Source of the DNA: Halobacterium sp. DL1
GTDB taxonomy: Archaea > Halobacteriota > Halobacteria > Halobacteriales > Halobacteriaceae
DNA: 64,000 nt
Direction of reading: 5' to 3'
Assembly: GCA_000230955.3 (NCBI GenBank)
Contig: CP007061.1
Span: 1 to 64,000, forward strand
Shown: positions 5,463 through 63,382 of the stretch, piece after piece
Layout: every line of letters begins with the position of its first letter
Position numbering within the stretch: the first letter of the stretch is position 1
Translations under genes and position numbers: made by a program
Notes under the pieces: model-generated
The model's input: the letters and a program-made list of their open reading frames with translations, nothing else
Told to the model about the DNA's origin: nothing
The model's database searches: none

Positions 5463-6491
5463 TCACTCCATCGGCGATGCTGCTGTCGAATCAACAAGGG
5501 AATACTCCCGGTCCCGACTCGTTCCCTCCGCTTCCAGAAGGTTGTACTGTGCCATCTTCGAGAGGTACGTTCGCACAGTCCGTTTGGTCCGCGGGTCATC
5601 TGCCTCCTCAGTATAGCGCTCGTGAATCTCGCTGGGCCCAACCGGCCCGTGTTCGCGCACAACCTCGTAGACGACGCGCTGGTGGGGTGTGAGCGAGTCG
5701 AGACTTCGCTGTTTGATTTGGGCCCGCGCATCCTCGGCGGCGTCCAGTAGCATGTCGTCGGTGATGTGCTCGTGATTTTCGCGATCAGCCCTGCCCGCGG
5801 CTGTTCGGAGGATACCAATTGCGAGACGGGCGTCGCCGGCGGCTGCGTCAGCGATCCGGTAGAGCTGGTCGTCGGTGATGACGTCCTCGTCGAGCCCCCA
5901 CTTCGCCCGAGCACTCAAGATATCGTACAGCTGCTCGTCGTGGTACTTGTCCATTCGGACGTGTTCGCTGGAGCGCAGCCGACTCACAAGCCGGTCGTCG
6001 ACGCGGCTGAACAGCTCCTCTTCCTTGTTCGCGATGCAAATAATTGCGAACTGCGGGAGGCTGTGGAGGTCGTAGATGACGCTGGGGTCCTCCAACTGAT
6101 CGACCTCGTCAAGGATAACGACTGTTCGCGGGCCGTCGTGCTGTTGGAGTCGGTCGACGAGTTCGTCGTGCGGCGTCGACTGGCGGTGGATGTCGATGGT
6201 GGCGCCGAGGTCGTCGAGGATCTGATAGAGCGTCCGGAATCGGGTGTAGTTGCGCCAGCAGTTGACGTAGGTGGCCTCGACGTCAAGGACTTCTTCCCTG
6301 AGCCGTTCGGTGACGAACTTCGAGATGCAGGTCTTTCCGGTGCCGCTGGGCCCGGTGACGATGGCGGTGTCGGCGGGTTCGCCGTTCGTGATTGGTTCGA
6401 GGACGCTTGAGAGGTGGTTGACTTCGGCGTCGCGATGCTCAACTTCTCGAGGGACGAACCCGGCGCGAAGGACGCGAGCATCGCGAATCAT
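5463..6491 (-). CDS. orc: Second Orc1/Cdc6 family protein
   Basis: AAA+ initiator-type ATPase of 342 residues, shorter than the first one. Walker A GPSGTGKT is at residues 47-54, Walker B TVVILDEVD at about 123-131, and sensor-like text FAIICIAN follows. The N-terminus MIRDARVLRAGFVPREV matches the short start typical of accessory haloarchaeal Orc/Cdc6 proteins. No ORB-like cluster is obvious beside it, so it may act on another origin or regulate the first one. It is transcribed toward the RadA-like/polymerase operon but separated from it by about 400 bases. Confidence 0.93.
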   Translation of the reverse strand: MIRDARVLRAGFVPREVEHRDAEVNHLSSVLEPITNGEPADTAIVTGPSGTGKTCISKFVTERLREEVLDVEATYVNCWRNYTRFRTLYQILDDLGATIDIHRQSTPHDELVDRLQQHDGPRTVVILDEVDQLEDPSVIYDLHSLPQFAIICIANKEEELFSRVDDRLVSRLRSSEHVRMDKYHDEQLYDILSARAKWGLDEDVITDDQLYRIADAAAGDARLAIGILRTAAGRADRENHEHITDDMLLDAAEDARAQIKQRSLDSLTPHQRVVYEVVREHGPVGPSEIHERYTEEADDPRTKRTVRTYLSKMAQYNLLEAEGTSRDREYSLVDSTAASPME

Positions 6492-17050: not shown

Positions 17051-20000
17051 GTTTCAGACGTACCCTCGTGGGGTTGAAGTTGAGTGATCGAAAGCGGTTC
17101 AGCGACTCATCCGACCGTTTCAGACGTACCCTCGTGGGGTTGAAGTGAGTGGTCGCCGGGGTCGATGGGTCAGCGGACCCGCGTTTCAGACGTACCCTCG
17201 TGGGGTTGAAGTCCCCGGATAATGGCCTGTTCGCGCGGTTCCTCCCAGTTTCAGACGTACCCTCGTGGGGTTGAAGTTCGACCTCGGCGATGCGCGGCAT
17301 CCGGATCTCGTCCGTTTCAGACGTACCCTCGTGGGGTTGAAGTTTCGGGATTCCCGACATGGTCATCGGGAGAAGGGGCGTTTCAGACGTACCCTCGTGG
17401 GGTTGAAGTGACCTGAACAACGCCGACGTCGGCGCCGAACTCCTGGTTTCAGACGTACCCTCGTGGGGTTGAAGTCTCCGCGACGACACCGACGCCGTCA
17501 TCGACCTCTCGTTTCAGACGTACCCTCGTGGGGTTGAAGTCAGAAGTTCGCGGACTCCGCAGCGATGACGAGCAGTTTCAGACGTACCCTCGTGGGGTTG
17601 AAGTGAGTCGTCCACCCGTGGACTCCGCCGATCTGGAAGACGTTTCAGACGTACCCTCGTGGGGTTGAAGTCGCATTGTCCGCACGTGCAAACCCGTGTC
17701 TCGCTGCGTTTCAGACGTACCCTCGTGGGGTTGAAGTAAGCGGCGGCGGCTCTCCATGACTTCGGGAAGGCTAGTTTCAGACGTACCCTCGTGGGGTTGA
17801 AGTCTCGAGCACCACAACCGGCCGTCGCGGAGCGTGGGCGTTTCAGACGTACCCTCGTGGGGTTGAAGTTAGTAGCCCGCGATGTACAGCGGGTAGTCCG
17901 GGTTGTTTCAGACGTACCCTCGTGGGGTTGAAGTCCCGAGGAGGTCGACGCGTCGACGCGAGACTCCAGTTTCAGACGTACCCTCGTGGGGTTGAAGTGC
18001 GAAGTTCTGGAGGTGAGAGTCTCGCGTCGACGCGTTTCAGACGTACCCTCGTGGGGTTGAAGTGGCTGGTAGACCTCGCCGTCTGCGTGGAGCTGCTGGG
18101 TTTCAGACGTACCCTCGTGGGGTTGAAGTTGCTCGCCGCTGGTGTCCATCCGGGGCATCAGGCGGTTTCAGACGTACCCTCGTGGGGTTGAAGTACCCCC
18201 TGAGATGTTCGGAATCAGCAAAATGCGGCAGTTTCAGACGTACCCTCGTGGGGTTGAAGTTCCCGCACTGCTCGCCGGGAGGCCGGGCTATCGTGAGTTT
18301 CAGACGTACCCTCGTGGGGTTGAAGTTTCAAGGTCGACTTCGAGGACGGCCACTGTGACCGTGTTTCAGACGTACCCTCGTGGGGTTGAAGTCCCAAGCT
18401 TCGCGAGGACCTCGGGGAAGATCCCGCGTTTCAGACGTACCCTCGTGGGGTTGAAGTCCCCAGAGCGACGTCGGTTTGGCGCTGTCGTGTCCGGTTTCAG
18501 ACGTACCCTCGTGGGGTTGAAGTTGGTACTCGGTCGCGATGTCACTCGCGTTGGAGAGGTTTCAGACGTACCCTCGTGGGGTTGAAGTGCGCCGACGACG
18601 TCGTCGACGAGCGGACCGGCGAGTTTCAGACGTACCCTCGTGGGGTTGAAGTGCCGGACCCGAGCAGCATGTCATGGATGCGGTCCTTGTTTCAGACGTA
18701 CCCTCGTGGGGTTGAAGTCGCTCTATCCACGCTTGCAGGTGCCACGACTTTCGTTTCAGACGTACCCTCGTGGGGTTGAAGTGCGTCCCCACCGGGGGTG
18801 CCCGTGTTGAACGGCAGGTTTCAGACGTACCCTCGTGGGGTTGAAGTATCTTGATCACCGTCGCGGTGGTCGTGGTGAAGTAGTTTCAGACGTACCCTCG
18901 TGGGGTTGAAGTTCTCACCGCCCTGGTGGCTGTCCATCGAGGACGAGTTTCAGACGTACCCTCGTGGGGTTGAAGTGACGTCTACCGCCTCGCAGAGACC
19001 GCGGTCGACGGGTTTCAGACGTACCCTCGTGGGGTTGAAGTTTCTCGGCGCCGTCGCGGTCGCGGTGGCGGTCTACTGTTTCAGACGTACCCTCGTGGGG
19101 TTGAAGTCACCGCATCAGCGAGGAGATCACCAACATCGGCCAGTTTCAGACGTACCCTCGTGGGGTTGAAGTGCGGCGGGTCGAGCCGGCCTCAACGGTG
19201 CCGACTAGTTTCAGACGTACCCTCGTGGGGTTGAAGTTGGCAGGGCTCGTCGCCGACGGTGTCGGCCCCGCAAGTTTCAGACGTACCCTCGTGGGGTTGA
19301 AGTGGACCGCCTCATACCTCGACGACCACGGGATCGACGTGTTTCAGACGTACCCTCGTGGGGTTGAAGTATCTGGAAGAACCTCTTAAAGCCGATACTC
19401 AACTCGTTTCAGACGTACCCTCGTGGGGTTGAAGTGCCCCAGGAGCTCACCCGGCTCCAGCTCGGCTGGCTCGTTTCAGACGTACCCTCGTGGGGTTGAA
19501 GTGAGATCTGGGAGTGCTCCAGGTGCTCGACGATGAAGTTTCAGACGTACCCTCGTGGGGTTGAAGTTGTAAGGGGTGTGATGTCGCTGCGACTAACGGG
19601 AGTTTCAGACGTACCCTCGTGGGGTTGAAGTTTCAAGCTCGACGTCGAGCATCGGCGCGTCGTCGTGTTTCAGACGTACCCTCGTGGGGTTGAAGTGGTT
19701 AGCGTCGCGCCCATGGTAGCGTTGTTTTGCTCGTTTCAGACGTACCCTCGTGGGGTTGAAGTGCCGCCGGGATTGCCGGCCTCAACCCGACGACCTAGTT
19801 TCAGACGTACCCTCGTGGGGTTGAAGTGCCTCCTGGAGCTCGCTGGAGGTGCGGCCGTCGGCGTTTCAGACGTACCCTCGTGGGGTTGAAGTAGCCGGAT
19901 CCGCAGCGAGATCCCCGGCTTCGAGTTGTTTCAGACGTACCCTCGTGGGGTTGAAGTCTCCTCGGGGACACGGCGACGGCGGCCTCGACCGGTTTCAGAC

Positions 20001-20676
20001 GTACCCTCGTGGGGTTGAAGTCTCGTGGCCGCCACTCCCTGGCGTCGCCGGAGGGGGTTTCAGACGTACCCTCGTGGGGTTGAAGTGACATCAACGGCGC
20101 GGACGGCGGAAACTACGTTTCCGTTTCAGACGTACCCTCGTGGGGTTGAAGTCTCCTGGTCGTCGGCTTTCTCGAGCCACTCGTAGAGTTTCAGACGTAC
20201 CCTCGTGGGGTTGAAGTGATGAACAGGGAGGCGAACACCGACCGCATGTGCGTTTCAGACGTACCCTCGTGGGGTTGAAGTGACGTGCTCGCGGTCGCCG
20301 CTGGGGGTGATGACGTGGTTTCAGACGTACCCTCGTGGGGTTGAAGTCTGCGGGTAGCTCGCGCCGAGCGGAGTCGACGGAAGTTTCAGACGTACCCTCG
20401 TGGGGTTGAAGTGAGACATGGGGTAAAGCAACCCGACACGTCAAAGAAGTTTCAGACGTACCCTCGTGGGGTTGAAGTAACTCCGAAATCGAGCGGGTCA
20501 AAGAGGTGAACCCCGGTTTCAGACGTACCCTCGTGGGGTTGAAGTCGTGACGGGGCCGCCTGGGCCGCCCTCCGAGGGGGAGTTTCAGACGTACCCTCGT
20601 GGGGTTGAAGTTGTCATAGGTATGAAACACCACCAGAGTCGTCATCGTTTCAGACGTACCCTCGTGGGGTTGAAGC
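17051..20676 (+). CRISPR. Type I-B CRISPR array, 56 repeats, 55 spacers
   Basis: I counted 56 copies of a 30-bp repeat that starts GTTTCAGACGTACC and ends GTGGGGTTGAAGT. The first begins at 17051 and the last at 20647. Repeat starts are 64 to 67 bases apart, so spacers are 34 to 37 bases. All repeats look identical except the last, which ends in C instead of T. The orientation (cas2, leader, array) and the GTTGAAGT end as 5' handle place transcription on the plus strand. Many spacers read as protein-like sequence, for example DLNNADVGAELL and HRISEEITNIG, as expected for viral or plasmid genes. I found no spacer matching elsewhere in the window by eye. Confidence 0.99.
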
Positions 20677-22263: not shown

Positions 22264-22354
22264 TCTTACTAGAGGACAGGGTAGAACGGCTCTGGCTGAG
22301 TTCTATCACTCAGGACTATTCAATTGAATGACTGGAAAATGCAGATCTCATAGA

Positions 22355-22692
22355 CAATTTGCATAATGTGGATAATGTTGATAATGCAAATTGGGTATCT
22401 TCAATTGGTTCGTGTGGGTGGCAAAGATTGTGACGAATATGTATGTAATGCTGATAATCTAAATTATGTAGATTGCGTAAAGTCGACGGTGATTAGGACA
22501 ATCTCAATTGCGCCAACAATCCACGGAATGTACAAAATGTAAGTTGTGTAGATAGCGTACGCAATCTGTCTGACACAGAATTAAGGTGGACGAGCTTCAT
22601 TAACCGCGTATGACCAGAGCGAAACTTACATTATCGACAAAACTCGCGCAACCTTCAACATCTATCCAATGTACATTATCTACAAAATGTTC
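22355..22692. repeat. Contiguous 9-bp phased repeats upstream of parA (putative centromere)
   Basis: AT-rich tracts made of back-to-back degenerate 9-mers near ATTATGTAG. Block 1: ATAATGTGG, ATAATGTTG, ATAATGCAA at 22363-22389, framed by CAATTTGC (22355-22362) and its inverse (22386-22393). Block 2: GTAATGCTG, ATAATCTAA, ATTATGTAG, ATTGCGTAA at 22445-22480. Block 3: GGAATGTAC, AAAATGTAA, GTTGTGTAG, ATAGCGTAC at 22525-22560. Block 4, inverted, at 22624-22692 with ATTTTGTAG and ATAATGTAC in phase. A fifth block follows the operon. Such tandem short repeats beside parA are typical of sites bound by ribbon-helix-helix partition proteins. Confidence 0.7.
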
Positions 22693-22722
22693 AAAATCCG
22701 CTTCTTACGGGGGTGCTGAGCT

Positions 22723-23595
22723 ATGAGTGCTGACGAGTTTGAAGGACTCCCCGGAGCAGCTGTCTCGTTGCTCAAGGGAGGGGTAGGGAAATCCACGATC
22801 GCGCTCAACATCGCTGATCGACTCGCTGCTCGTGGCCATGAGACGGTACTATTGGATCTGGATAAGGATGGGCACATGACGACCCAGTTGGGATACGACG
22901 ATGCGTACGACCGAGATGCGAACCTCGGTGACGCCCTTATCGATGGTGAGGACCCCGAAGACCTGCTTATCGAGACGGACTTCGGCGTTCACCTACTCCC
23001 GTCGAGTAACGAGCTCGAGAACGTCGAGACGAGGCTGAAGGACGAACGGTTCGCAGACGTGAAGCTTCGACGGAACGTCGTCGACCCGCTCATTCAAAAC
23101 GGATACGACTACGTGATAATTGATGCCGCAGGCGGCCGTGGGAAACTCTCTGATAATGCCCTTATCGCCGTCCAGCGCGTCATTATCCCGCTGATTCCGC
23201 GTGCTGGCTCGATCAACGGTCTCAACAAAATGATTGAACGCCAGATCTCCCCAATCCGACAGAATATCGGGTTAGATATCCTCGCAGTTACCCCGAATAT
23301 GATTCGTGAAACAATGGGTCAACACAACGAGCACCGAACTCTCGTTGAAAATCTCAACCGAGAGTTCGGTTCGTTCGTCCCTGAGTACGCTCGTGTGGAC
23401 CCGGAGATCTTTGATGCCCTCGATGATTTGGGACGCACCATCGATAATATCCCGAAGCCGGGGATTCGCGAACGGACCGCAATTTCCCGCGCCTTCAAGC
23501 AAGGGATGCCCGTCTCGGAGTTCGACGAAGATTGCGACCAGATCCCGAATTTCGACCACTTAGCGGACCTCGTGGAGGAACACAGCCATGCCTAA
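22723..23595 (+). CDS. parA: ParA-family partition ATPase
   Basis: Deviant Walker A ATPase that segregates the plasmid. KGGVGKST is at residues 18-25, the Walker A' region is TVLLDLDKDGHMTTQLG, and VIIDAAGG is the Walker B-like strand. 290 residues without an N-terminal DNA-binding domain, so a small type Ib-like ParA. A G-rich Shine-Dalgarno-like stretch precedes the ATG. It overlaps the small acidic gene 23588-24073 by eight bases and is preceded by the 9-bp repeat blocks. A second, different ParA lies at 57775-58686. Confidence 0.9.
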   Translation: MSADEFEGLPGAAVSLLKGGVGKSTIALNIADRLAARGHETVLLDLDKDGHMTTQLGYDDAYDRDANLGDALIDGEDPEDLLIETDFGVHLLPSSNELENVETRLKDERFADVKLRRNVVDPLIQNGYDYVIIDAAGGRGKLSDNALIAVQRVIIPLIPRAGSINGLNKMIERQISPIRQNIGLDILAVTPNMIRETMGQHNEHRTLVENLNREFGSFVPEYARVDPEIFDALDDLGRTIDNIPKPGIRERTAISRAFKQGMPVSEFDEDCDQIPNFDHLADLVEEHSHA

Positions 23596-24073
23596 TGAGG
23601 ACGACCGTTTCGGGGACGTCGCTGAACAGCTCAAACAAACGGAGGAAGGTGCCGAATCGGATGACGACGAACGTACTGACACCCATGATGAACCGCAACC
23701 GGATGAAGAGATAACTACTGAGGACACAGAGTCGGAGACTGAGTCCATTCCTGAGCAGGATGAGGAGGATGTGGACGAATCCACCGGTGGACCGGCGTTC
23801 TCCTTTGATGAGACCGATATGCACGGCTTCTATGTCCGGGAGGACACGTGGGATGGCGTCACCCGGATGCGATCATCAGTGGCTGCCGCTTGCTCAATGT
23901 TTGATGTTCCCGAGTACGAGGGAAGAGAGTTCCAAGATGCGTGTCTCCGGGTAATTGCGGACCACGGTGACGAGGTTGCCCTACAGATACTCCGAGAGCG
24001 TGGCATCGAAGCTGATGAGGAACGTGTCCAGGAAGTTGTGGAGATGCTTAGCGAGCAGGTCTCGAACGACTAA
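23588..24073 (+). CDS. Small acidic ParA partner (putative centromere-binding protein)
   Basis: 161 residues. The first 70 are highly acidic and low in complexity (QPDEEITTEDTESETESIPE). The C-terminal half, about residues 78-160, looks globular and helical (GFYVREDTWDGVTRMRSSV, FQDACLRVIADHGDEVALQI). No match to classical ParB. By position, overlap with parA and flanking repeats on both sides, it is the likely DNA-binding adaptor. The partner of the second ParA (57320-57772) has the same layout of acidic tail plus short C-terminal domain but little sequence likeness. Confidence 0.65.
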   Translation: MPNEDDRFGDVAEQLKQTEEGAESDDDERTDTHDEPQPDEEITTEDTESETESIPEQDEEDVDESTGGPAFSFDETDMHGFYVREDTWDGVTRMRSSVAAACSMFDVPEYEGREFQDACLRVIADHGDEVALQILRERGIEADEERVQEVVEMLSEQVSND

Positions 24074-24115
24074 CCCTGCATTTGCCCGATTTTCTCTACT
24101 ATTTAGGTTTTGCAC

Positions 24116-24151
24116 ATATTGCACATTATGTAGATTATGTGAATGCGATTG
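24116..24151. repeat. 9-bp phased repeats downstream of the partition operon
   Basis: Four contiguous 9-mers, ATATTGCAC, ATTATGTAG, ATTATGTGA, ATGCGATTG, in the same style as the blocks upstream of parA. The operon is thus flanked on both sides by the putative partition site. This block contains the best match to the consensus. Confidence 0.6.
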
Positions 24152-57205: not shown

Positions 57206-57319
57206 TATCGTGAATGACGATTCATTTTGGCATTCAAAAGAACAGGAGAGGGTCTATTCTGAGCACCTCGTTCGATGCCGGCCATCCTCATAATATTCGA
57301 GAATCTGTGAATCAGTGAT

Positions 57320-57772
57320 TCACTGATCGACGTCTTCCTTGGCTAGTTCGCGAATCTTCTCCTTCGTTTCCTCCTGGTGCTCGCCGAACGCCACCTCGAA
57401 AACCCCACGGTAGAAGTGCTTGTTTTTCTCCAGCGTGATGTCTTCGCGTTTGAGCTGCTTTTTCAGTCGAGTGAACGTGATCTCGACGTCTTCGCTTTGC
57501 TCCGGTTCGACGTATATCGTGGCTGAATCCCAATCCTCGCGGATGTTCAGCGGCTCGTCATCTGTCTCTCTTGCCTCACTGGTCGACGAATCACTATCGG
57601 TCGTGGAAGCGGTCCTCTGCTGATCTGATCGATCTTCGGTCGCCGCCGCAGTTTCACGATCCTTCGCTTCCGATTCCACGGACGTCTCCATGGTCTCCTC
57701 GTCTGCGACCGCGTCCTCCTCTTCCACCTCATCTGAAGGGTCCTCGAACCGTTCGTCCATTCCCCGGGGCAT
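57320..57772 (-). CDS. Small acidic partner of second ParA
   Basis: 150 residues. The first 85 are acidic and low in complexity (DEVEEEDAVADEETMETSVE). The C-terminal domain, about 86-150, includes SATIYVEPEQSEDVEITFTR then LKKQLKREDITLEKNKHFYR and a basic-acidic helix; the layout resembles a short ribbon-helix-helix DNA-binding domain. The start is ATG 57772, two bases after the ParA stop, or ATG 57760. The repeat motif GTGATTCACTGATC lies over its stop codon. Likely centromere-binding protein of the second partition locus. Confidence 0.65.
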   Translation of the reverse strand: MPRGMDERFEDPSDEVEEEDAVADEETMETSVESEAKDRETAAATEDRSDQQRTASTTDSDSSTSEARETDDEPLNIREDWDSATIYVEPEQSEDVEITFTRLKKQLKREDITLEKNKHFYRGVFEVAFGEHQEETKEKIRELAKEDVDQ

Positions 57773-57774
57773 TC

Positions 57775-58686
57775 TTACGCCTCCACCTGCGCCTTGTCGA
57801 ACGCCTGTTCCATCGTCTCTGCAACTTCCAGGAAGAGGTCACGCTCTACTTGCTGATCGTTCGCGTCTTCCCATTCGAAAATATCTTGTCCGTTGTCCCA
57901 CGCACGCTGAATCGCTACTCGCATCGGGAGCTTGAAAATTGGTGCCATCGACGCGAAGGACTCGTCGAAGGCGTTGAGGAATTTTTTCGACTGGCCGTCG
58001 TCCCGGTACATGTTCGCCAGGAGTCCGACGATTGCAATCTCGATCTGTTGATTGTCCTCGATGGACTCCAACTGGTCCCACAGATCGTCAAGTGCATCCC
58101 GTGATGTTGCTTGGGTCTGTGCAGCCAGGAAGACGTTCTGAGCCGCGATGAACGCCGCATCTGTTAGGACTGAGAGGTCAGGGGGGCAGTCGACTACGAT
58201 ATAATCATAGTTGTATCCGTCGTCAACCATCTCTTCGAGGGCGAGCTTCAGCGAGAGTCGGGCACTCGCATCGTCCATCCAATCTCGAGCAAGGCCCATA
58301 TCCTTGTGGCTGGGAATCAGGTCGAAGTTCAGATGGTCGTACTCGTCGGCTTCGATCATAATCTCTGAAAGACTAGTATCGTGCGTGCGGGGATTATCGA
58401 CGAGTACGTCGAGCAGATTCTCGTCATCGGTGACTAATGTGTTGGGGAGTTCGTTCTTCGGGCTTGAAGGATCGTTGTCGTCGCCTGGACCAAGTCCAAG
58501 CCCTTTCGTCATGTCGGCTTGTGGGTCCATATCGATTGCAAGAACATCGTGGTTGCGAGTAGCCAGCGCCGCGGCACTGTTGATCGTCGCCGTTGTTTTT
58601 CCTGTCCCGCCTTTCTGGTTGCCGAAGGCGATCGTGGGGATGCCAGTCGATGGGGTGACGCCCCATCCACGAGGTGTCTCGGTCAT
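57775..58686 (-). CDS. parA2: Second ParA-family partition ATPase
   Basis: 303 residues. Deviant Walker A GNQKGGTGKTTATIN (KGGTGKTT at 25-32), Walker A' VLAIDMDPQADMTKGLG, and YIVVDCPPDLSVLTD as Walker B. It is closer to classical ParA/Soj than the first ParA (22723-23595), which has LDLDKDG in place of DMDPQAD. It is followed by the acidic small gene and preceded by a tract of 8-bp repeats. Confidence 0.92.
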   Translation of the reverse strand: MTETPRGWGVTPSTGIPTIAFGNQKGGTGKTTATINSAAALATRNHDVLAIDMDPQADMTKGLGLGPGDDNDPSSPKNELPNTLVTDDENLLDVLVDNPRTHDTSLSEIMIEADEYDHLNFDLIPSHKDMGLARDWMDDASARLSLKLALEEMVDDGYNYDYIVVDCPPDLSVLTDAAFIAAQNVFLAAQTQATSRDALDDLWDQLESIEDNQQIEIAIVGLLANMYRDDGQSKKFLNAFDESFASMAPIFKLPMRVAIQRAWDNGQDIFEWEDANDQQVERDLFLEVAETMEQAFDKAQVEA

Positions 58687-58689
58687 GGT

Positions 58690-59110
58690 TCGATCATTGA
58701 ATCAATGACTCATAAATCCACCTCAGACGTCCAATGCCGAACTAGAACTTCTAAAGTGCTGAATTCTGTGGTATCACCTCTAATACCACCATATTCTACT
58801 TCTCCTGGTTGAAAATCAGTAACTCATTGATTCATGGATTCACTGAATACAGGATTCCTCACAATGCCTGTAATCTTGGAGGATGATGTCTGATACTGAC
58901 AGTCACTGAATCAGTGATTCAGTGCCTCCTGCAGTAGCAGATTCATTGATTCATTATCCCATGGACTCACTGAATCTTTGATTCAGCGCTTCCGGCATTC
59001 ATTGACTCCACGACTCTCCACATAATATTGGATTCCAGGAATCAGAAACTCCTTGATTCTCTGATTCAAGTTTTCAGTGATTCATTGATTCAATGACTCT
59101 GTGATTCACT
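58690..59110. repeat. Contiguous 8-bp phased repeats upstream of parA2 (putative centromere)
   Basis: A 420-bp AT-rich region full of NNTGATTC octamers in both orientations. In-phase runs: AGTGATTC ATTGATTC at 59076 onward, followed by AATGACTC and TGTGATTC; CTTGATTC TCTGATTC near 59052; CACTGAAT CAGTGATT near 58907; GATTCATT GATTCATT near 58942. One more set covers the stop of the acidic gene (57301-57326). The unit and period differ from the 9-bp repeats of the first locus. Confidence 0.75.
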
Positions 59111-59179: not shown

Positions 59180-60472
59180 TCAACCCTCCTCGAAGGCGGC
59201 AGCTAGCTGGTCACGCATATACTCTCGACGGAGCTTCCGGGCCCGCGAATCTGAGAGGTAATTTTGCAATACGACGTCGGCACTCGCGCTTCCTTGTTCG
59301 GCCGCAATCTCGTCGAGGCTTCCGAGGACGACGTCGAGTGACGAGGAATAGGCGTCATACCAGAAGCGTCGCCCCATCTTTGGCGAGGGGGATACACCAC
59401 CAATTTCGTCAGGCAGACCCGCTTGCTCAGCGAGTTGGGTAAAGCGATTCCAGACTGTCCACCGGGAAATCGGGCCGCCTGAGGCGTGTGGCGACGGAAA
59501 CAGATAGCCATCCCACTCCTCGTGATCGGCGAACATTGCAATGCGGTCTTCGAGTACCTCTTTACCGTAGAGTAGCGACACCTCGCCGGGCCCATTCTTC
59601 CGCTCCTCGAACGTAATATACGGAACTTCGTCGGTAGAGATGTCAAGAACGAATTGGCGTACTCGTAGGCTGGCCACCTCATTCGGACGAAGACCCCATG
59701 CACACAGGGCGAGTACCAGGAGGCGGTTCTCCTGGTCGTCTGCCGCATTGTAGAGTGCGCGAACGTGCTCGGTGGCGAGACATGGTGTATCCGTATCGTC
59801 GTCATCGCCGTTCGACCAATCGAACTCGTCGTCGAGGCCGTCAGCGGGGTTCACCGCAGCCCACTTCCGACGCACTAAATGCGCATACCAGTTCGAGACC
59901 GCGAGATGAATCCGGCGTTTGGTTTGTCCACCGTCGAGATCCACATGCAGCCGGTCGAACGCCGCCCAACACGCATCAACTGCTTTGTAAGCTGGGACAT
60001 CGCCCTCCCGGGCGACGGGTGTCACAAGGTCGTCGGTTCCATTCTCTTCACAGTAGGCGGCGACGTAGCGGTTCAATCGGTAGCGGAGGGTATCTATCGA
60101 CGAGTCCGCGAGCCCCTTCCGCTTCCGCCGTGACGTGAGGAAGGACTCGAGTGCCTCGATAGTCCGTTCGTGGTCGGTCGCCCAGTCGTAACCCGATTCT
60201 ACGGCCTCGGCCCCGAGATCCTCACGCCAAAACTCTGCGAAGGTCCTGTCGTGGTACTCCCGCAGGGCGTAGAGGAGCGGCCGGAAGCCATGGTCGCGGA
60301 GCCAGCTGTGTGTCGGTTTTTCTCGTTTTGGATCGAGCTCGTCTGTCTCCATCATCGGGGCGACAACAGCCCAGTACGCGTCGACGAGTTCTTCGAGATC
60401 GAGAAGAGTCCACGAGACGTCGTCGACGTCCTCCCAGTCTCGGTCACTCCCTGGTGTCGTTACGCCGCTCAC
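59180..60472 (-). CDS. Tyrosine recombinase / phage-type integrase
   Basis: 430 residues. An N-terminal SAM-like core-binding domain covers about residues 100-215, and the catalytic domain follows. Active-site candidates: Arg I in CAWGLRPNEVASLR, the H-x-x-R region as KMGRRFWYDAY, where the usual first His is Lys, and Tyr in VVLQNYLSDSRARKLRREYM. It could resolve plasmid multimers beside the partition locus, or integrate an element. The first 100 residues are an extra region. Confidence 0.8.
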   Translation of the reverse strand: MSGVTTPGSDRDWEDVDDVSWTLLDLEELVDAYWAVVAPMMETDELDPKREKPTHSWLRDHGFRPLLYALREYHDRTFAEFWREDLGAEAVESGYDWATDHERTIEALESFLTSRRKRKGLADSSIDTLRYRLNRYVAAYCEENGTDDLVTPVAREGDVPAYKAVDACWAAFDRLHVDLDGGQTKRRIHLAVSNWYAHLVRRKWAAVNPADGLDDEFDWSNGDDDDTDTPCLATEHVRALYNAADDQENRLLVLALCAWGLRPNEVASLRVRQFVLDISTDEVPYITFEERKNGPGEVSLLYGKEVLEDRIAMFADHEEWDGYLFPSPHASGGPISRWTVWNRFTQLAEQAGLPDEIGGVSPSPKMGRRFWYDAYSSSLDVVLGSLDEIAAEQGSASADVVLQNYLSDSRARKLRREYMRDQLAAAFEEG

Positions 60473-61921: not shown

Positions 61922-63382
61922 CATAAATTGGTCGTGTCGCAAAGCGGTCTAGACTTTGCCGCTGGTACTCTCAATTGAGAGGTCACAGTTGATTGCTGTT
62001 TTGGTCGAACGCTGGAGCAGTTCGTCGAGGAACGCTTGGTAGTACTCGGGGTCGGTGTACTTCACCAACCGAAGTTGGAGTATCGCTTCCAATCCCTCTG
62101 CTGTCCAGCGCATCCACTGGTTCTTGCACCGCTTGCTGACCTCGCCCATCAGTCGTTCGACGGGGTTCGAGGTCCACGGAACCTCGAACCCCTCGACAGC
62201 GTGCTCGGCGAACGTCACAATCGACGGCAGCCACCGCCGAAGATACCCTGCAGCCTTCGCTGACCCGAACTGCTCCAGTTGCCACGCTGTCTTCTCCAAT
62301 CGCTCTCTCGTTCGCGCGATCCGCGAGCGGATCGCCTCGAACTCCTCTTCTGGATGGTGTTTCACCACCGAGTTCTTCAGATGGGATACCTCGTCGATCA
62401 CCTCCGAAACGATCTCCTTCCGGCGGTCCAAGGAGAAGACGCCATCGTCCCAGAGGGTGTAGCCCAGCGTTCGGCCGACGTGAACGAGATCGAGTTGGTG
62501 GTCACGGGCTTCGTCGGTAAAGGCCGTGACGATGCCGCTATCAGCGTCACTGACGACCGTCGCGTCGTCAGTGACTGCGCCGATATCATCGAGTTCGGCG
62601 GCAGTTTCGTCCCAGTCAGCGTTGACCGACAGATCCAGGAGGGAGCGTGACTCTTCGGCGGTGTCTTCGCCGAGCGTTGCTTGGACGGAGTGGGACGAGC
62701 GGTCGTCGTCTTGGCTGTGGCATTTTGTCCCGTCAGGAATGACGGTGTCAGCGTCTGTGTCAGCGACACAGTCTGGGAGGAACTGCTTGAGCTTGTGGCC
62801 GTATTTCTTGGCACGGCGGTTGATGGTGGTCGGCGACGGCATCGAGACGAAGCCGTCGCCGTGATCGGCAGCGTCACGATAGCTGAGCGAGGTAGCGAGA
62901 TCGACGCTTTTGGCGGCGATGTCCTGCTGATAGCGGTTCTGTCCGTCGAAGCTAAGAACGTCTTCGACGGGGCGGAAATAGCTGGATTCGTCGTTATCAG
63001 CGGCTGTATCTTCGATGTAGTGGAGAGAGAACTCGTGTTCCCCGGCGGTTGTGACAGCTGTGCGGGTATCGGTGCCGGCGCGTTGGAAGCGTTGGTCACC
63101 GTTGCCGTGGGCGTGTTTGTCGCCACAGAGCGCCTCGACGCTGGCGGCGTCGAGGCTCTCGACCAGCGATTCAAGGAGTACTGCTTCGAGGTTCTGGTCA
63201 GTGACGGCCTCGGCAAGCGTGGCGAGCGGTAGCGTTTTGTTGTCGTCGATACTCAGTTCAAACCGCACGTCGATTGTGGCGTGCATGGGTCACCTCTTGG
63301 GTGGATACCAGAGGCGACCCGTTCCTCACGGGAGCCAGTTACTACTGAACTCTAGAGGACTTTGCGACACGACCCATAAATT
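61922..63382. mobile_element. ISH6, complete
   Basis: The 1445-bp element runs 61930-63374 with ends GGTCGTGTCGCAAAG and its inverse at 63360-63374. CATAAATT is duplicated outside (61922-61929, 63375-63382). Size and 8-bp duplication are as known for ISH6. The insertion replaced the last codons of the gene to its right. Confidence 0.93.
61949..63286 (-). CDS. ISH6-family transposase
   Basis: 445 residues, full length. Start MHATIDVRFELSIDDNKTLP. Acidic residues of the core are in VIPDGTKCHS, VVSDADSGIVTAF and WTSNPVERLMGEVSKRCKNQ. No internal stop or frameshift, so probably active. Confidence 0.95.
   Translation of the reverse strand: MHATIDVRFELSIDDNKTLPLATLAEAVTDQNLEAVLLESLVESLDAASVEALCGDKHAHGNGDQRFQRAGTDTRTAVTTAGEHEFSLHYIEDTAADNDESSYFRPVEDVLSFDGQNRYQQDIAAKSVDLATSLSYRDAADHGDGFVSMPSPTTINRRAKKYGHKLKQFLPDCVADTDADTVIPDGTKCHSQDDDRSSHSVQATLGEDTAEESRSLLDLSVNADWDETAAELDDIGAVTDDATVVSDADSGIVTAFTDEARDHQLDLVHVGRTLGYTLWDDGVFSLDRRKEIVSEVIDEVSHLKNSVVKHHPEEEFEAIRSRIARTRERLEKTAWQLEQFGSAKAAGYLRRWLPSIVTFAEHAVEGFEVPWTSNPVERLMGEVSKRCKNQWMRWTAEGLEAILQLRLVKYTDPEYYQAFLDELLQRSTKTAINCDLSIESTSGKV

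Follow-up and report, generated by a model that had tools for sequence, protein, structure and literature searches.

A ParA-adaptor cassette with a phased field of 8-bp repeats, a candidate haloarchaeal centromere, on a secondary replicon of Halobacterium sp. DL1

Introduction

In the delta-omega/parS system of plasmid pSM19035, a small ParA without an HTH works with a small DNA-binding partner, the ribbon-helix-helix ParB omega, and the centromere consists of contiguous short repeats of mixed orientation that overlap the promoters of the par genes (PMC9499535). The repeats, non-palindromic 7-bp WATCACW sequences, are each occupied by one omega dimer, and four contiguous repeats are the minimum for full activation of the ParA (PMC9499535). 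In the ParFGH system of TP228, the parA gene is followed by that of a small ribbon-helix-helix protein, ParG, which has a flexible N-terminal tail and a folded C-terminal domain, coats the upstream parH array of degenerate tetramer boxes, and also represses the operon (PMC7308502). The archaeal partition literature that we consulted covers Sulfolobus SegAB and pNOB8 (PMC9178275, PMC5120986). SegAB of the Sulfolobales again joins a ParA to a small site-specific partner, which acts on short upstream palindromes, the 13-bp TCTAGA-S-TCTAGA, that are scattered over the chromosome (PMC12284271). A full-text search of the openly licensed literature found no described haloarchaeal centromere.

We analysed the first 64,000 nucleotides of contig CP007061.1 of Halobacterium sp. 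DL1 (assembly GCA_000230955.3), and refer to this whole stretch as the window. A sequence-only reading had placed a second partition locus at 57301-59110, and both its coordinates and its genes proved right. We interpret the locus, with a probability of roughly 0.85, as a haloarchaeal ParA partition cassette in which a small adaptor protein would read a field of 8-bp repeats as centromere and as site of autorepression. The best reading is that it represents a haloarchaeal partition family not described before, with a mode of action like that of ParFGH and delta-omega. The locus provides a concrete and widely shared candidate for a haloarchaeal centromere, and the adaptor family is called hypothetical in databases.

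Results

The cassette consists of two genes, and a third gene adjoins the repeats (coordinates are those of the window).

57775..58686, minus strand: parA2, a 303-aa ParA-type ATPase without an N-terminal HTH; Walker A KGGTGKTT at residues 25-32
57320..57772, minus strand: adaptor (putative centromere-binding protein), 150 aa, with an acidic disordered N-terminal tail and a compact C-terminal domain (residues ~75-150)
59180..60472, minus strand: tyrosine-recombinase-like gene, whose 3' end adjoins the repeat field; a frequent neighbour, outside the repeat-reading unit

The product of parA2 matched the Pfam families AAA_31 (E=2.4e-35) and CbiA/ParA (1e-19), as well as PHROG 164, ParA-like partition protein (2e-41), and it starts at the Walker domain. 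The adaptor gene lies directly 3' of parA2 with a gap of 2 bp (57772/57775), and this gene order was recovered in loci of adaptor families A, B and C. Among the first 75 residues of the adaptor, 28 are D/E and 7 are K/R, and this tail carries a conserved ERF motif. The adaptor had no match to any Pfam, NCBIfam or PHROG family. Since no ParB or HTH match to the adaptor was seen, the locus falls outside type Ia ParABS (HTH ParA, CTPase ParB), and as a two-gene cassette with an array of 8-bp units it also falls outside the AspA-ParB-ParA arrangement of pNOB8, which has three genes, one of them for a ParB-N/CenpA-like protein, and a 23-bp palindrome. What we found instead, an HTH-less ParA, a downstream gene for a small partner and short upstream repeats, is the composition of type Ib-like ParA systems with a small partner, such as ParFGH and delta-omega. 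With a ParA that lacks a DNA-binding HTH, the adaptor is the natural DNA reader. The product of the neighbouring gene matched Phage_integrase (E=8.3e-6, just under the gathering cut-off) and a PHROG integrase (7.1e-16).

Upstream of parA2 lies the repeat field.

58820..59108, strand not assigned: field of in-phase 8-bp TGANTCAN units, candidate centromere (parS); clusters at 58820-58842, 58907-59009 and 59038-59108

The sequence-only reading had described a field of NNTGATTC octamers with runs of four in phase and both orientations present. The phased 8-bp field and the runs stood up to analysis, as in the run at 59078/59086/59094/59102, whose third copy has one mismatch. The unit is better given as TGANTCA followed by a 1-bp spacer, a near-palindromic 8-bp unit with the invariant core GANTC. 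The apparent orientations largely reflect the variable centre base of this near-palindrome, mostly A or T with G/C also seen, rather than true orientation. The core GANTC is at the same time a HinfI/CcrM-type methylation site throughout 58698-59108.

Eleven exact TGANTCA heptads were counted in 58698-59108, in addition to two at 57308-57322, compared with a chance mean of 0.75 and a maximum of 6 in 5,000 dinucleotide-preserving local shuffles of 58687-59110, an excess far beyond chance. Autocorrelation at 8 bp, proposed earlier as a check, gave identities of 0.42, 0.37 and 0.36 at lags of 8, 16 and 24, against a null of 0.26±0.02 and shuffle maxima of 0.34, 0.35 and 0.35, so that all three exceeded every one of the 5,000 shuffles. 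Copies with at most one mismatch shared a single 8-bp phase within each cluster (58820-58836, 58907-59003 and 59038-59102). The bare hexamer TGATTC was only mildly enriched across the window (52 vs 34.4), and specificity therefore lies in the phased heptad pair: the tandem pair TGANTCANTGANTCA occurred four times in the 3.16-Mb genome, always within 57308-59092, and reversed-pattern controls gave 0.

Further units lie at both ends of the operon.

58690..58717, minus strand: putative promoter/operator, with a TATA-like TTTATG (58717-58712) overlapped by two TGANTCA units
57308..57322, minus strand: two units on the adaptor stop codon, whose TGA is the first TGA of TGAATCAcTGATTCA

The two putative operator units (58706-58712 and 58698-58704) are at -26 and -18 of the parA start codon, and a third, degenerate unit, TGATCGA, is found at 58690-58696. 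Beyond the operator pair comes a poorly conserved gap of ~110 bp, and then the field, which extends to about -420. Leaderless transcripts are common in haloarchaea, and if the parA transcript is one of them, a protein on the -26/-18 pair would block both the TATA box and the start site. Both units were present at identical offsets in 38 of 43 distinct relatives, with the consensus GGATTTATGAgTCAtTGA.TCAATGATcgaac. The gap also contains an inverted repeat (GTGGTAT...AATACCAC), which the relatives do not conserve. At the other end, the repeats noticed earlier over the adaptor stop were found as described, the stop TGA being that of the unit 57316-57322, followed by a second unit at 57308-57314. 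Of 35 relatives, 27 have an exact unit on the adaptor stop and 31 have in-phase units there.

The comparison with described systems showed likeness in layout rather than in sequence. The unit here is 8 bp long and near-palindromic, whereas that of omega is 7 bp long and non-palindromic; no sequence similarity of the adaptor to omega was detected, and here repeats are also found on the adaptor stop codon. The boxes of the ParFGH centromere are ACTC tetramers with AT-rich spacers, in contrast to the TGANTCA heptads of this locus. The adaptor would share with ParG the repression of its operon, but it has a strongly acidic tail, as befits a halophile, and lacks similarity to ParG. The SegB site core AGA(S)TCT contains GANTC, as does the unit here, but the site itself (TCTAGASTCTAGA, the basis of this comparison) differs from the unit at the present locus, and dense 8-bp arrays at one plasmid locus stand against sites scattered over a chromosome. 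Tandem near-palindromic 8-bp boxes, each taken by one dimer, are also the met boxes of MetJ, which unlike the present adaptor is a methionine repressor and not a partition protein. Profile comparison (hhalign) of the adaptor with ParG, omega and MetJ (PDB 1p94, 1irq and 1cma/1mj2) gave no match.

We used structure prediction to look at the fold of the adaptor. AlphaFold2 modelled the full-length protein with low confidence (pLDDT 55), but the C-terminal domain, predicted from a 55-sequence domain alignment, reached a pLDDT of 87.7, with an extended segment followed by helices at 90-108, 116-131 and 133-149. Tyr87, which is invariant, lies in the predicted extended segment, and this segment could supply one half of the ribbon in a ribbon-helix-helix dimer, in which K116-N117-x-x-F120-Y121 would open helix two. 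A Foldseek search of the domain model against PDB and viral models returned nothing usable, and when 49 full-length and 55 domain sequences were scanned against Pfam, no ribbon-helix-helix match worth counting was seen. A ribbon-helix-helix fold is a likely but putative assignment for the adaptor.

Conservation of the array was then assessed among Halobacteriales. The family-A adaptor was found in 45 of 392 sampled genomes, with many matches on plasmid-size contigs. It also occurs in 26 plasmid records, which either label it a hypothetical protein or leave it unannotated; none of the phage records searched carried it. In most matches megablast DNA similarity stops ~40 bp upstream of parA, yet the array was kept in 43 distinct upstream regions though most of the surrounding DNA could not be aligned. 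Heptads in these regions were spaced by 8, 16, 24 and 32 bp in 132, 40, 26 and 19 cases, and in-phase runs of at least four units (one mismatch allowed) were present in 36 of the 43, compared with 0 of 1,000 Markov shuffles. Across 538 field units the GANTC bases were fixed at 94-99% and the outer T and A at 80-85%, values favoured by the selection of units that deviate from TGANTCA at one position or none.

At least two TGANTCA pairs were present in 41 of the 45 genomes with the adaptor and in 3 of the 347 without it (Fisher 2.6e-47; the sampled genomes are related, and the counts are not fully independent). One of the three exceptions, G060, holds a decayed copy of a family-A locus. In this copy (L184, G060:C3:2448962-2452440), which lies on the main chromosome, the operator and field persist, parA has a stop after four codons, and recombinase fragments are found nearby. 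The pair motifs of the other two were hairpin repeats (CGTGAATCATTGATTCACG) in G011 and two isolated pairs in G010. The two adaptors of the window and their counterparts in G163, which belongs to another genus, have 100% identical protein sequences. Deep Lake haloarchaeal genera are known to swap long identical stretches (PMC6011602). At 61949-63286 lies an ISH6-like transposase region whose DNA matches copies in Halorubrum lacusprofundi and strain DL31 at ~95% identity, in keeping with recent exchange between genera.

The first partition locus of the window provides a cassette for comparison.

22723..23595, plus strand: parA1, first partition locus; PHROG 164 (E=3.3e-38) and a match to ParA2
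23588..24073, plus strand: adaptor 1, family C, of the same build; near relatives adjoin ParA
22300..22722, strand not assigned: repeat field with a 9-bp period, words AATGTAGAT and AATGTACAA, conserved in family C

The two cassettes are 34 kb apart on the same replicon. As the sequence-only reading had recognised, their adaptors are alike in build, with an acidic tail and a small C-terminal domain, and the two loci differ in both unit and period. The period is 8 bp at the second locus and 9 bp at the first. Identity in the first field was 0.40, 0.36 and 0.35 at lags of 9, 18 and 27 against a mean of 0.27, and its words recur after adaptor 1, at about 24100-24150. A large CRISPR array at 17183-20675, with a 30-nt repeat (GTTTCAGACGTACCCTCGTGGGGTTGAAGT), ends ~2 kb before this locus.

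Distant adaptors, 21-30% identical to P0001, likewise follow ParA genes. The A2 profile reached L153, of a YVR-type branch close to adaptor 1 (E=1.2e-7), and by sequence profile the family A and C adaptors are distant members of one superfamily. Family B adaptors (NGRTIY(I/V)P...) accompany 9-bp arrays of AACGAANNN. In shuffle-tested autocorrelation the period was 8 bp in 45 of 47 family A loci (41 under A and four members tallied under 'other'), and 9 bp in 30 of 31 loci of family B and 23 of 24 of family C, that is, in 53 of 55 non-A loci. Several smaller adaptor families showed no significant array in 450 bp. That adaptor type and period go together in many genomes makes the adaptor the likely reader of the repeats. 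The ParA families, however, vary in step with the adaptor families, and the period split by itself cannot assign the reading to the adaptor over the ParA.

Discussion

We propose that adaptor dimers, one per 8-bp TGANTCAN unit, would bind side by side through the C-terminal domain and fill runs of units cooperatively. The 290-bp field upstream of parA would then act as the centromere, where the multi-dimer complex may engage nucleoid-bound ParA-ATP, probably through the conserved motif of the adaptor N-terminal tail (MPRGMDERFEDP), and be moved by ParA cycling. Judging from its position over the TATA-like box, adaptor bound to the -26/-18 pair would shut off the parA-adaptor operon. The units at the stop codon could form a second, smaller site.

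The constant offset at which units cover the TATA-like box could also be taken to mean that the repeats are an operator array only, the adaptor being an autoregulator and the true centromere lying elsewhere. Most units, however, lie 130-420 bp upstream of parA, on the far side of the ~110-bp gap and well away from the core promoter, and in-phase runs of at least four exceed the needs of a simple operator. In addition, the omega sites of pSM19035 do both jobs (PMC9499535). We consider an operator without centromere function unlikely.

It is more improbable still that the field belongs to the adjoining tyrosine recombinase, as a multimer-resolution or integration site. Homologous recombinases also adjoin family-B loci, where the arrays are of 9 bp, and a family-A locus of Halolamina keeps its array with no recombinase gene annotated beside it. 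To our knowledge, core sites of tyrosine recombinases do not take the shape of a phased array of ~20 units. These observations outweigh the fact that the recombinase-like gene abuts the field, and that a plasmid of G115 carries two additional TGANTCA fields next to a different tyrosine recombinase, with no ParA. The extra fields, on contig 3 (330,897 bp) of that genome, are at 1478-1870 (L182) and 306425-306817 (L183), separated by ~26 kb when counted across the contig ends; each adjoins a 400-aa tyrosine recombinase, and they are possibly secondary centromeres or decoys. Finally, a replication origin, with iterons or ORB elements for Orc1/Cdc6 or RepH, is suggested by AT-richer intergenic repeats on a secondary replicon with several Orc1/Cdc6 genes, but has very little probability, as the nearest of these genes (5508-6488 and about 88.5-91.4 kb of the replicon) are >29 kb away, the array goes with the adaptor family from genome to genome, each time directly upstream of parA, and the unit is not an ORB that we know of.

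Under the preferred reading, a partition cassette whose adaptor reads the field, the sister cassette with its 9-letter repeats suggests how co-resident plasmids escape mutual confusion. Because sister adaptors would use 9-bp arrays, co-resident par loci should be kept distinct by the combination of unit sequence and spacing. A broader and rather tentative idea, which we hold to be less likely than not, is that an acidic-tailed haloarchaeal adaptor superfamily sets both the pitch (8 or 9 bp) and the sequence of the unit, such that pitch might serve as an orthogonality code by which several par loci share a cell or a replicon. The presence of two related cassettes of different pitch on one replicon lends itself to direct swap experiments, and the arrays could serve to stabilise haloarchaeal vectors.

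The replicon itself (C2; 315,592 bp) carries three ParA loci and several Orc1/Cdc6 genes, which suggests that it is composite. The third ParA gene, which lies outside the window at 197066-197932 (G000; locus L054), has, in place of an 8- or 9-bp array, spaced CTATAG palindromes near its start codon. The Orc1/Cdc6 genes fall into at least four separate regions, one of which (about 88.5-91.4 kb) is broken.
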